A DNA stretch of 40,631 nucleotides, from assembly GCA_937916515.1 (NCBI GenBank), contig CALFSX010000156.1, positions 1-40,631 on the forward strand, given 5' to 3'. The notes beneath the pieces are model-generated. The model saw only the letters and a list, made by a program, of their open reading frames with translations. It made no database searches and was not told the DNA's origin. The translations under genes and the position numbers were made by a program. The first letter of the stretch is position 1. Each line of letters opens with the position of its first letter. Below are positions 16,832 through 20,900 of this stretch, one piece after another. Origin of the DNA: an uncultured Planctomycetaceae bacterium (GTDB lineage Bacteria > Planctomycetota > Planctomycetia > Planctomycetales > Planctomycetaceae).

Positions 16832-17415
16832 GTTGTGGTCTCGTGATGTAATCTTTATGATTGAACTAATGCTGACAGTAGACGTCTGTCGCTGCAGATG
16901 TCGAAGCGGTTGGATGAACAAGCAGCAATGCCTGAGCCGCACGACTTATCGATGCGGGCAAGTCCCCACTTGCCTGGTAAATCTGTTTTTTTGTTTCAGT
17001 GTTGGACATCCCCATTGGTTAGTTGACCAGGTTGGCTGTGTTCTGGATGAACGTTGGGCGAGAGGGGGGAAGCAAAGCGAAATGGCGTTCGCAGGCCCGA
17101 GTTTCCCTTTCCGGATGTTTTGGGGCAGGTTCCCTTGCAATGCATTACTGCAACAGTGACGGTTGTAGCGAATAGTCTGACTCAGCCGTTCTGGTACCGG
17201 GCCTTGTTCGGGAAAGGCAGGCGAACGTAGCGGTCTGTTGCGCGGAGGAATCACAATTTCGGCTGAGTGTGGCAGTTCACGTATTGATCCGTCCTGCCAC
17301 CCATGTCACGATTAGAAATCGTGAAGTCTGTGTGGTCTGATTGCCACGCAAACTTCACGGTGGCATGGTCGCCACATGGATATTCCCAATGCCACGAAAG
17401 GCTTGCGGTTAGCCT
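16832..17415. other. 584-bp divergent region ahead of the GHKL cassette
   Basis: Between the HDOD-GGDEF gene (minus) and the three-gene cassette (plus). No convincing gene. It contains a 7-bp hairpin at 16957-16974 (GGCAAGT, CCCC, ACTTGCC) and the dense structured block at 17269-17395 listed separately. Confidence 0.55.
17269..17395 (+). promoter_or_regulatory. structured leader with alternative hairpins upstream of the GHKL cassette
   Basis: Three stem-loops can form in the 110 bases before the GHKL start. H1, 17306-17324: TCACGATT, AGA, AATCGTGA (perfect 8 bp). H2, 17321-17358: GTGAAGTCTGTGTGG pairs with CCACGCAAACTTCAC (13 Watson-Crick, one G-U, one mismatch; 8-nt loop). H3, about 17360-17375: GTGGC with GCCAC. 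H1 and H2 share bases 17321-17324, so they compete. TGCCAC or its complement occurs five times between 17269 and 17395. The layout resembles an attenuator or a cluster of operators; no known riboswitch is recognised. Confidence 0.5.
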
Positions 17416-19383
17416 GTGAAACCCGGATGGCACTTTAATCAGGTAAGTCCTCGATTTAAAAATCGAGAAGCAACGCAAGGTGAATTCTTCGCCTCAGACA
17501 CTGACTTGCGCGCATTCGTTCGTGAAGCGATTCAGAATTCCCTGGACGCCAGACGCCCTTCATCGTCGGGGCCGGTTGCTGTTCGGATTTTTTTGTCTGG
17601 CGAAACTCACGCATTGTCAGCTGAAACCGCCAAACCCTATTTTAAGGGCGGTTGGGCTCATTTTCAGGCCCCTAATAACGGGCTTCGCGATGTTGCCGCC
17701 AAAGATGAACCTGTGCGTTTTTTGGTTTTTGAAGACAGCGGCACAACGGGTTTGACGGGTGATGTCGATCAATATCATGAAGTATCTGGAGTTCGGAATC
17801 CGTTTTATTATTTTTTTCGAGCTGAAGGACAGTCAGGCAAGTCAGCAACAGATCGAGGACGTTGGGGGCTGGGGAAGTTTGTGTTTCCGCGTTGCAGTCG
17901 ATTGCGTTCTTTTTTTGCGGTGACCGTGCGGCATGACGACCGTCGCCGACTGCTGGTTGGGCAGTCCATCTTGCGGTCTCATCAGGTGAATGACAGAAGT
18001 TATACACCGGACGGTTGGTTTGGTCCGAAAGCCGCAAAGAAAACCTTACATCGGCCACTGGAAGACAACGCGTTTATCGATCAATTCGAACGCGACTTTT
18101 GTCTGGAACGCAAGAGCGAGCCGGGCTTGTCCGTTGTTGTTCCTTACTGCGATCCCGATTGGTCAGCCGATCAGGTTGCTCAGTATGTAACGGAAGACTA
18201 CTTTCATCCGATTCTCAACCACGAACTTGTCGTGACAGTAGAAGGTCCCGGCAGTGAATTCGTGATCAGTGCTGATTCCATCGCTGACGTTGTGAAAGCG
18301 TTTTCGCCCTTGCAGCAAGCTCAGACAAGGCCGTTGCTGGAACTGGCGACCTGGGGCCTGGATAAAAAGGCACATGGTTTGTATCTGCTGAATATGTGCG
18401 ATCGCATGGCAGCTCCCAAATGGTCTAAGAAGATCATTCCTGAAGATCTTGCGGACGAAATTCGAGAACAGTATTCCAGCTACAAGCGTGTGGGAGTTCG
18501 GGTGCCGGTGATGGTGCGTCAGAAGGATGGCGAGGACCAGGTTTCACACTTCGACGTGTTTCTGGAGAAGGCGGATGGTTCGCACCTGAAGCGTCCGTTG
18601 TTTATCAGAGAAGGAATTCTGATTTCCGACGTTCGCAGCAAACTGACTCGGGATTTGCGAGCAATCGTTTGCATTGATGACGCCCCGCTGGCTCGCTTTT
18701 TTGGGGACGCCGAAAATCCGGCTCATACTGACTGGAGCGAATCTTCATCTCACTTCAAAGGCAAGTACGTAAACGGAGTTGCGACGCTGCGTTTTGTGAA
18801 GAACTCAGTTGCCGAAATCTGCCAGACGCTGGCACAGGATCCGGGTGAAGAAGATCCTCGAGTGCTGTTGGATGTGTTTTCCATCGGAACAGATAACCAT
18901 CGACAGGGCTATCTGGTTGACTATGAAATGCTGAAGTCGGCTCAGGAAAGAGCTCGCACCCAAAGCCCTCGCGAACTAACGGGCACCGCGAAGCCGAAGC
19001 CGTTTCGAGTTCGCCGCCGAAAGGGAGGGTTCCGCATCCTGTTTGGCGATCGTAAATCGGAACGTCCAGAACTCATTGATGTGAAGGTGGCCTACGATCG
19101 CCGTAACGGAAGTCCGTTAAGGAAATATTCTGCAGAAGACTTTCATCTTGGCGAGACGCCGATTTCGATCGTTTGTGCAGCGGCAGAAACCGAAATTGTC
19201 GCCGGCAATCATATGTTGATTCGGGTTCTGGAGCCGGCATTCGATATTGCGGTTACCGGTTTCGACGCCAATCGCGATCTGTACCTTGATGTGAAAGTTC
19301 GCAGCTCTGATCCGGTTGTTGGTAAATCAACATCCGGTGCTTCAGGTCGCGAGGCTTCCTCGACTTCAAAGCGGAAAGGTTGA
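17416..19383 (+). CDS. GHKL-type ATPase, first gene of a three-gene cassette
   Basis: 655 residues. The GTG at 17416 is the earliest possible start (an in-frame TAG lies two codons upstream) and no ATG comes soon after. The N-terminal domain (about 20-245) has all GHKL ATPase boxes: N-box FVREAIQNSLDARR (E37, N41), G1 box FEDSGTTGL (D107, G109, G112), and the lid with GQSGKS...GRWGLGKFVF (about 138-157), then GLSVVVPY. This lid arrangement recalls MutL/Hsp90/MORC-like ATPases more than sensor kinases; there is no His-phosphorylation domain and no membrane segment. Residues 250-655 are unassigned; the end (about 520-640) looks beta-rich. GHKL ATPases of this sort occur in bacterial restriction-like and defence loci, which suggests but does not prove a defence role. 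The next gene starts 5 bp after the stop. Confidence 0.8.
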   Translation: MKPGWHFNQVSPRFKNREATQGEFFASDTDLRAFVREAIQNSLDARRPSSSGPVAVRIFLSGETHALSAETAKPYFKGGWAHFQAPNNGLRDVAAKDEPVRFLVFEDSGTTGLTGDVDQYHEVSGVRNPFYYFFRAEGQSGKSATDRGRWGLGKFVFPRCSRLRSFFAVTVRHDDRRRLLVGQSILRSHQVNDRSYTPDGWFGPKAAKKTLHRPLEDNAFIDQFERDFCLERKSEPGLSVVVPYCDPDWSADQVAQYVTEDYFHPILNHELVVTVEGPGSEFVISADSIADVVKAFSPLQQAQTRPLLELATWGLDKKAHGLYLLNMCDRMAAPKWSKKIIPEDLADEIREQYSSYKRVGVRVPVMVRQKDGEDQVSHFDVFLEKADGSHLKRPLFIREGILISDVRSKLTRDLRAIVCIDDAPLARFFGDAENPAHTDWSESSSHFKGKYVNGVATLRFVKNSVAEICQTLAQDPGEEDPRVLLDVFSIGTDNHRQGYLVDYEMLKSAQERARTQSPRELTGTAKPKPFRVRRRKGGFRILFGDRKSERPELIDVKVAYDRRNGSPLRKYSAEDFHLGETPISIVCAAAETEIVAGNHMLIRVLEPAFDIAVTGFDANRDLYLDVKVRSSDPVVGKSTSGASGREASSTSKRKG

Positions 19384-19388
19384 TAGTC

Positions 19389-20150
19389 ATGCCGCGACTC
19401 AACTTTACCGGACGCCGACGGATTGCTCAGGATCACGTGAAGATCAGCGTGTCAGCTGCGGACGGGCAAAACTGTTTTTCTGCTCGTTTGAATCTGGAGA
19501 CCTACGGTTTTCCAGAGACCGCTGCAGTGATTGTGGAAGCCTATCGTCAGCTGGAATTGTCTCGCTTTGAATTCGGTACAGTCACGCGTCCCATTCCTCC
19601 GCCGAACTGTCGCCTGGGAGAATTCGGTGCGCTGGAAGGTGTAAAGTTTCGGGTGAAGGTTGTTTCCAACGACGCTCCCAAAGGCCGCTTATTGGGAGTT
19701 GCTGATCGGATAGTGGCTTCGGATCAGGCGATTGATCGTATTCGACGAATTCCGTTGATCAACGTGAAGGGGCATGATCTCGGTCGCGAAGTCTGGAAGA
19801 TCGACTTTGCCGACGAACCAATTCTGCTGATCAATTATCGCCTCGCAGATAAGCACGCGTTGGCCAGGTCGGGAGTGTTTCAATCGTTGGTGCTGCCGGA
19901 AGTGTTGCGATCTATTTTGACTCGCATTTTGCTGGTCGATCAGTATCGATACTTTGAGGACGAAAACGACTGGGCCGCGCGGTGGCTGCGATTTGCGTCG
20001 TCGTTTCCTGGTGTTGGCGGGGTTCCGGAAGACGAAGATGCCGAACTGGATGCGGAGTGGATTGATTCTGCTGTTTCCGCATTTTGTCAATGGCGCGGAA
20101 CGGATCGACTGTTTAAGGAGTTCTGGGGTGATTCGGAACAGGGAGCTTAG
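19389..20150 (+). CDS. unrecognised protein, second gene of the GHKL cassette
   Basis: 253 residues, no family recognised. I choose the ATG at 19389: AAAGG lies 9 nt upstream, inside the end of the GHKL gene. A TTG at 19380 would overlap that gene by four bases but has no RBS. The N-terminal half looks beta-rich (KISVSAADGQNCFSARLNLE, FRVKVVSNDAPKGRLLGVAD), the C-terminal half helical with many aromatic and acidic residues (DQYRYFEDENDWAARWLRFA, CQWRGTDRLFKEFW). No signal peptide, membrane segment or catalytic motif is visible. Gaps of 5 bp before and 3 bp after show translational coupling with both neighbours, so it probably forms a complex or pathway with them; a bridging or adaptor subunit is only a guess. 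Confidence 0.75.
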   Translation: MPRLNFTGRRRIAQDHVKISVSAADGQNCFSARLNLETYGFPETAAVIVEAYRQLELSRFEFGTVTRPIPPPNCRLGEFGALEGVKFRVKVVSNDAPKGRLLGVADRIVASDQAIDRIRRIPLINVKGHDLGREVWKIDFADEPILLINYRLADKHALARSGVFQSLVLPEVLRSILTRILLVDQYRYFEDENDWAARWLRFASSFPGVGGVPEDEDAELDAEWIDSAVSAFCQWRGTDRLFKEFWGDSEQGA

Positions 20151-20153
20151 TTG

Positions 20154-20900
20154 ATGCAGGCTCGCAGACTAACCAAGGCCGGCGTAGAACGTTTTGAGGA
20201 TTTTCTGGAACGCCTGAAGGCCAACCCGAACTCAAAACTGCCAACGCACGCACTGACGGATGATCGGTTGTCGGAACCTGTTGAAATTCACATTAACGTC
20301 GAACCAATGCCATTCGCAACTCGAATGGAAGTTGCCAAACATGTGTTCGCGTTGCTGCGGCGTGACCCCGAAACGCTGCGAATCGACAAAGGGTTCTGGT
20401 GCTGGCTGAGCTTATTCTGGTTCAATAACCTGTGTCCTCAGACTTCCGGCAGTCGTTCGCCTGGCGATCGCTATCGCTGGATTGCGGAACTCGACAACAC
20501 GCGCCGAGCATACCGCCATTTGCTGGCAGGGCCTTATCAGATTTATCGAGCTCATCGCGATGATCCCGAACGAGCTCGCGCGTTGTTGTGTGGCCCCGTT
20601 CATCAGCAGGGCGAATTGCTGGCTCAAATCGCTTCGCGTCCATCACTGGTTACCAGCAAAGCGGTTGTGGCCGTTGCCACTCTGTTATATTACAACCGCG
20701 AAACCGATCGCCTGTGTCGAGGATGTGGCGGCAAGGGGCCTGGCAGCGCAAGACGCTTTGCAGACATTCTTAGCCAGTTGGATTTAACATGGGATCTGCA
20801 TTCGCTTACAGTGAAGCAGTTGCTGGAACTTTTGCCGGACGAGTTCGATTCATTTCGAAGCCGTTCGGTTAAACGGCAGCAGCTTCTGTTTGCTGAATGA
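20154..20900 (+). CDS. DUF6339-like protein, third gene of the GHKL cassette
   Basis: 248 residues starting at ATG 20154 with GGGAG eight bases upstream in the end of the previous gene. The pattern of the whole chain (opening [18 protein letters not shown], then [55 protein letters not shown]) matches my memory of DUF6339, a bacterial family of unknown function that I associate with GHKL-ATPase, Z1-helicase and PD-(D/E)XK nuclease gene neighbourhoods; this is recall, not a search. A CRGCGGKG segment (about 182-189) holds the only close Cys pair. Soluble, mostly helical. None of the usual larger partners (methylase, helicase, nuclease) is present here, so the cassette may be a minimal or partial version. 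Confidence 0.7.

Follow-up and report, generated by a model that had tools for sequence, protein, structure and literature searches.

The window analysed here is a stretch of 40,631 nucleotides from an uncultured Planctomycetaceae bacterium (contig CALFSX010000156.1, positions 1 to 40,631 of the forward strand, assembly GCA_937916515.1). It holds three tandem genes, here called A, B and C, which form a real three-gene unit. A is predicted to be a GHKL ATPase with the ExxxH motif of the paraMORC2 type, and by sequence comparison the trio is a divergent counterpart of the PADLOC candidate system PDC-M33. We consider it reasonably probable that A, B and C are one machine from a divergent paraMORC2/PDC-M33 branch, serving as a restriction-modification accessory that acts on DNA depending on its cytosine methylation. 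The initial annotation had called it a candidate undescribed system, which needs correction: its sister is listed in PADLOC as PDC-M33, and the ExxxH is that of paraMORC2 (Iyer 2008). The three genes are as follows.

17416-19383, forward strand: gene A, predicted GHKL ATPase of the paraMORC2/PDC-M33A kind, 655 amino acids, GTG start.
19389-20150, forward strand: gene B, 253 amino acids, ATG start; predicted fibronectin-III/Ig-like beta-sandwich (about residues 8-112) and C-terminal helical domain.
20154-20900, forward strand: gene C, 248 amino acids, ATG start; predicted mostly helical, probable remote DUF6339 (PDC-M33C) relative.

Among 392 genomes of the phylum, A had matches in 17, full-length in 12 (the window genome included) and weak in 5. 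Apart from the window, 12 planctomycete loci carry a full-length A, one genome contributing two, and B and C adjoined A in all 12. When 84,980 species genomes were searched with a profile, at least 365 relatives of A were confirmed, of which the best 80 were analysed; these stand closest to A and were not drawn at random, and for the many that are metagenome bins the titles may be mistaken. They came from planctomycetes, proteobacteria, Bacteroidetes, Verrucomicrobia, Chloroflexi, Acidobacteria and others, mostly as metagenome-assembled genomes, with one archaeal record. B was present in 71 of the 80 loci and C in 65, nearly always directly 3′ of A, and the loci lacking B or C were contig ends or belonged to one planctomycete group. 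Across 150 genomes of the family (the A and C counts come from the same draw as far as the lists show), A was found in 24, C in 23 and both in 21 (Fisher p = 2e-20). Exceptions to this pairing comprised, for A, two degenerate fragments and one gene from a genome that is 66% complete and, for C, one degenerate and one partial copy; a few of the 21 genomes with both genes were partial matches at contig ends. The initial annotation had proposed a three-gene unit and named rare co-occurrence as the outcome that would speak against it; the genes do not co-occur rarely, because B and C usually accompany A, and the unit stands.

Protein A carries the features of the GHKL superfamily, an N-box with its glutamate and asparagine, a D-x-G-x-x-G motif and a glycine-rich lid, as well as the ExxxH motif. 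Conservation is given over an alignment of 80 rows.

17524-17547, forward strand: N-box of A (E37..N41..D44), the expected ATP/Mg site, at least 90% conserved.
17734-17751, forward strand: G1 motif of A (D107-G109-G112), D107 and G112 invariant.
17857-17877, forward strand: lid (G2) motif of A, GRWGLGK, residues 148-154, with G148, G151 and G153 invariant.
18712-18726, forward strand: ExxxH motif of A (E433-H437), invariant.

All 14 planctomycete A genes that were checked kept E37, N41, D44, D107, G109, G112 and the lid glycines, and the complete motifs and residue numbering first assigned to A are right. The ExxxH was also intact in 14 of 14 and lay at the same place in 11 PDC-M33A-type proteins. 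Pfam gave chance-level matches only for A, B and C, and NCBIfam gave none. A matched the PADLOC model of PDC-M33A with an E-value of 1.4e-21, and its profile-profile comparison with PDC-M33A-type proteins reached 100% (E-value 1e-38). The sole sequence hint of a Bergerat fold in A, a likeness to topoisomerase VI subunit B with an E-value of about 1, vanished with a deeper profile. In the passages of Iyer 2008 (PMC2292703) drawn on here, the S5 domain of paraMORC2 ATPases is reported to carry a strongly conserved ExxxH in its C-terminal part, and these ATPases are assigned to restriction-modification loci that also encode cytosine methylases and Vsr nucleases. From its sequence, A probably has the GHKL+S5 arrangement.

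The partners are harder to place. B was described at the outset as unrecognised, and neither Pfam, NCBIfam nor PADLOC recognises it. In HMMER searches with the PADLOC hidden Markov models, B had no PDC-M33B match and C no PDC-M33C match. The AlphaFold model of C has a predicted local distance difference test (pLDDT) score of 94 and a predicted template modelling (pTM) score of 0.89. Compared with DUF6339 proteins in hhalign, C gave a probability of 70% and an E-value of 4e-5, against 0.3% and 0.06% for crossed controls, which moderately supports C as probably a remote relative of DUF6339/PDC-M33C. The resemblance to DUF6339 proposed initially thus stands at the profile-profile level and is invisible to HMMER, where none of 13 C proteins reached the gathering cut-off of DUF6339 (PF19866); the window genome holds no DUF6339 match. 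No nuclease family or fold was matched in family scans of all three proteins or in fold searches with B and C.

DUF6339 (PF19866) itself occurs in 5 of the 392 planctomycete genomes, the very five in which A had no more than a weak match. Two of the five operons were scanned with PADLOC and proved to be PDC-M33A, B and C, DUF6339 being PDC-M33C. Dcm and Vsr lie near four of the five loci, the fifth being a 6.3-kb contig. By eye, frames upstream at the DUF6339 locus L160 look like a broken relative of A. Dcm, Vsr or type II restriction genes also adjoin sister operons on plasmids, of which 10 of 25 matches were opened. Trios with an annotated DUF6339 gene adjoined methylase or restriction genes in Priestia, Planococcus, Arthrobacter, Paenarthrobacter and Ligilactobacillus; a Deinococcus plasmid carried an A relative with Dcm and Vsr, then unnamed genes, and an Enterococcus plasmid carried a trio-like set and AIPR with no Dcm.

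The relatives of the window trio share this company. When neighbours of the best 80 loci were clustered, the commonest families were a cytosine methyltransferase (30 loci) and Vsr (21 loci), followed by a planctomycete gene (8), the unnamed family F4 with no Pfam match (7), the small gene F5 (5) and an EcoRII-C nuclease (4). In 40 of the 80 loci, picked by hand for a chance control, Dcm lay in the locus 26 times against 0.22 expected by chance, with Dcm genes counted per whole genome. Thirty-four relatives have B and C as well as flanks of 4 kb or more on either side; by profile models, 22 of these 34 had a Dcm-type methyltransferase, 20 of them together with Vsr. The kinship with restriction-linked MORC-like ATPases suggested at first holds.

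Other neighbours were seen at single loci or in small groups. The neighbour scan covered 120 of 126 chosen neighbours; six were omitted for size, one of which was scanned alone, a 977-residue protein with HSP70 and Swt1-like HEPN domains directly 3′ of A-B-C (L055:11382-14315). AIPR proteins lie beside A-B-C (L046:11361-13415) and beside the PDC-M33-like trio of the Enterococcus plasmid (L176:5698-6888). In two Bacteroidetes loci a second GHKL protein (HATPase_c_3) stands between Dcm and A (L072:4652-6913 and L093:6135-7988); one of these also matches HATPase_c, and one has a weak HSDR_N_2 match. A small gene of about 60-120 codons is often found 5′ of the ATPase gene in both branches (L174 and L177-L181; L045, L083, L086, L102 and L107), and the sole member scanned, from L086, had no Pfam match.

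The window belongs to a group in which no linkage to Dcm was found. In a tree of 92 A proteins, made quickly with no bootstrap and with long end branches formed by four outgroup rows and L090, the window falls in an 18-row planctomycete clade with a Shimodaira-Hasegawa-like approximate likelihood ratio test (SH-aLRT) support of 100. None of the 18 members has a linked Dcm; 11 have sufficient flank, 7 are cut, and L031 and L150, both among the 11, are identical. Dcm is linked in the nearest sisters outside the clade, L045 and L046, at a fork with a support of only 84. Models built from the relatives' genes found no Dcm, Vsr or EcoRII-C in the window. In this clade the module is independent of restriction-type neighbours.

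Some genera of the clade have gone further and carry A alone or A with B only. Nine distinct genomes were searched for the dispersed genes, three further entries with identical places being taken as the same genomes. C was present in seven of the nine, always away from A, and B in eight, four times adjoining an A copy and four times alone. Of the 21 family genomes that have both A and C, 7 hold them on separate contigs or at a great distance from each other. The places themselves recur, with the neighbour s1 next to A at five of six A-only loci, s3 next to C at five of six C loci and s4 next to B at three of four solo B loci, and s1-A-B-C are still linked in L154 and L037. Pairwise ratios of nonsynonymous to synonymous substitution (dN/dS) were about 0.05-0.13 where dS was estimable, many pairs being near saturation; pairs that include the window's own gene gave about 0.07-0.10 for each of A, B and C, dS again being close to saturation. 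On these ratios, the genes of the clade are kept under purifying selection.

Single genomes show further copies and fragments. Degenerate A fragments, 68-69% identical and with stops, lie at G393:C21:57562-58228 (L153), in the window's own genus. B and C pieces at G570:C199:5314-5806 (L230) share a contig with a further A, and since G570 also holds solo A, B and C they are probably a decaying extra copy. The nearly complete genome G451 (taken to equal G531) has two A, one B and one C on C68 and C60.

Taken together, the ATPase kind, the partners and the neighbours of the relatives suggest a system that uses ATP to handle DNA in step with cytosine methylation and leaves the cutting to other genes. 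A, B and C would be subunits of one protein machine, which is the simplest account of the trio because co-occurrence without linkage is hard to explain otherwise. A would dimerise on ATP and clamp or loop DNA, and B and C would be its dedicated partners in recognition or assembly. The complex would sense cytosine methylation, act on DNA accordingly and pass non-self DNA or mismatches to a nuclease encoded by an adjoining gene. Methylation-dependent action seems the most likely because Dcm accompanies about two thirds of the fully flanked relatives, mostly with Vsr and sometimes with an EcoRII-type enzyme. As a restriction-modification accessory, the module would probably be anti-phage in origin; a defence function is still an inference, as it was in the initial annotation. 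In the window clade, the link to Dcm and Vsr would have been lost, and selection would have preserved the module in a chromosomal role, perhaps still in partnership with the window genome's unlinked Dcm and Vsr or else with a new task. The unlinked Dcm genes of three clade genomes share 78%, 72% and 61% identity with that of the window genome; of the ABC-linked Dcm proteins in the clustering, those at L082 (56%) and L053 (52%) come nearest to it, both loci with EcoRII-C and Vsr. The flanks of the unlinked Dcm genes in the window genome and the clade are not conserved.

Several observations weigh against this reading. Neither Dcm nor Vsr is found at 12 of the 34 fully flanked relatives, so methylation coupling may not be general, and at the plasmid loci L173, L176 and L180, three of the ten that were opened, the models detect no Dcm. 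The window genome has just one Dcm and one Vsr, on other contigs and unlinked to the trio. Scattering of genes is unusual for a defence system. On the side of kinship, B against PDC-M33B in hhalign was not significant (1.7%, E-value 0.03), the DUF6339 locus L160 has no profile-detectable A, and no paper on PDC-M33 or DUF6339 was found in the open-access literature searched.

Of the alternatives, a MutL-like role in repair fares best, and we think it rather unlikely. The trio would then couple Vsr to the mismatches left by deamination of 5-methylcytosine and serve the maintenance of Dcm-methylated genomes, not defence. Vsr adjoins 20 of the 34 fully flanked relatives, GHKL+S5 proteins include MutL in the account of PMC2292703 drawn on here, the dispersed genera combine conserved synteny with purifying selection, and the window genome does have its one Dcm and one Vsr. 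Such a role sits poorly with members and sister operons that also stand beside EcoRII-C nucleases, AIPR, type I restriction and Shedu genes, all of restriction or defence, and with the 12 relatives that lack both Dcm and Vsr. Less probable again is silencing with no cleavage, in which ABC would compact or silence foreign DNA as eukaryotic MORC does, with no nuclease partner. It would suit the MORC kinship, the chromatin-like role proposed for the class in those parts of PMC2292703, the one clade that keeps the trio with no linked Dcm or Vsr, and the lack of a nuclease match in A, B and C, a lack that does not exclude a nuclease in them. Against it, Vsr or restriction nucleases are often linked to the genes, a sign that DNA is cut elsewhere in the family. 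That the window cassette is a decaying, functionless piece of a former restriction-modification locus, as the missing linked methylase or nuclease and the degenerate pieces in G393 and G570 might suggest, is very improbable given three open genes with intact motifs, the low dN/dS of the window genes and the solo genes kept in sister genera. The initial choice between a minimal system and a remnant fits neither way simply: 22 of 34 relatives have a methylase, the orphan clade is under purifying selection, and in some genera the genes are unlinked.

Within the favoured reading of a restriction-modification accessory, the history of the window clade can be taken a step further. The co-occurrence of the dispersed planctomycete genes without linkage suggests that A, B and C work together. 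We regard it as possible, and no firmer than tentative, that a restriction-linked MORC-type machine was domesticated in this one clade: no longer tied to methylase and nuclease, the three subunits would be lodged in some genera at three separate, syntenically fixed places and inherited vertically as a chromosome-handling system. If so, bacteria would offer a counterpart to the way in which MORC ATPases were recruited into eukaryotic chromatin. The dispersed genes would offer a natural case of a restriction-linked ATPase turning into a resident chromosomal function, through which the proposed origin of MORC proteins becomes testable in a bacterium.

The layout in the window agrees with the initial description of near-touching genes with ribosome-binding sites inside the preceding gene. 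The gaps are 5 bp between A and B and 3 bp between B and C, the three genes are in tandem on the forward strand, open and intact, and two stretches resembling Shine-Dalgarno sequences were recognised by eye.

About 19373-19379, forward strand: Shine-Dalgarno-like GGAAAGG in the end of A, 9 bp 5′ of B.
About 20140-20145, forward strand: Shine-Dalgarno-like AGGGAG in the end of B, 8 bp 5′ of C.

A palindrome seen by eye (8-bp arms, 3-bp loop) lies at 17306-17324 of the window, about 100 bp 5′ of A and between divergent genes; none was seen 5′ of the relatives' genes examined. The host genome (G000) comprises 8.3 Mb in 343 contigs. Of about 26 genes in the window, 8 neighbours were scanned with Pfam and 10 with PADLOC. 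The Pfam matches were ordinary: chorismate mutase/prephenate dehydratase, an HDOD-GGDEF protein, a glyoxalase-like protein, an S-adenosylmethionine (SAM) methyltransferase, NAD(P)H-hydrate dehydratase and a sodium:solute symporter. PADLOC returned a generic methyltransferase likeness (mad2) and one marginal match.

Among known systems, the pairs of HEF_HK and Response_reg_2 proteins (PMC8011034, in the parts cited) resemble the trio in having a GHKL protein and a neighbourhood of Dcm/C5-methylases and Vsr, but they have two-component-like domains that are unmatched in A, B and C; HEF_HK proteins in such a neighbourhood form a further branch. VcSduA, of the paraMORC3 or Shedu type, likewise has a GHKL ATPase, here within a protein of demonstrated anti-phage activity, and as a GHKL-Shedu protein with phage defence activity it indicates that GHKL ATPases of such kind can serve defence (PMC12137116, in the parts cited). 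It differs in its own C-terminal DUF4263 nuclease, none being matched in A. ParaMORC1, as characterised in the passages cited from Iyer 2008, has a C-terminal extension beyond S5 and is found with MORC genes; here other GHKL proteins (HATPase_c_3) appeared in 4 of the 120 neighbours, and by its sequence the ExxxH fits paraMORC2 better than paraMORC1.

With paraMORC2, as set out in those passages of PMC2292703, A shares the GHKL motifs, the invariant ExxxH, the sporadic spread and restriction-modification neighbourhoods, the last in 22 of the 34 fully flanked relatives and not in the window. By contrast, paraMORC2 is described there as mainly cyanobacterial and Gram-positive, helicases are common in its loci but matched only 5 of the 120 neighbours scanned here (DEAD), and that text describes no partners resembling B and C. 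The closest counterpart is PDC-M33. A long branch parts window-type A proteins from PDC-M33A-type ones, the window B and C go unrecognised by PADLOC, Pfam and NCBIfam, and the window clade lacks linked Dcm and Vsr; the two systems nevertheless have the same gene order, similar sizes and the same kind of ATPase, A matches PDC-M33A, and both branches often stand beside Dcm and Vsr. The comparison thereby joins three things so far separate: an unrecognised three-gene family with at least 365 ATPase relatives, PDC-M33 with its DUF6339, and the paraMORC2 ATPases predicted in 2008.

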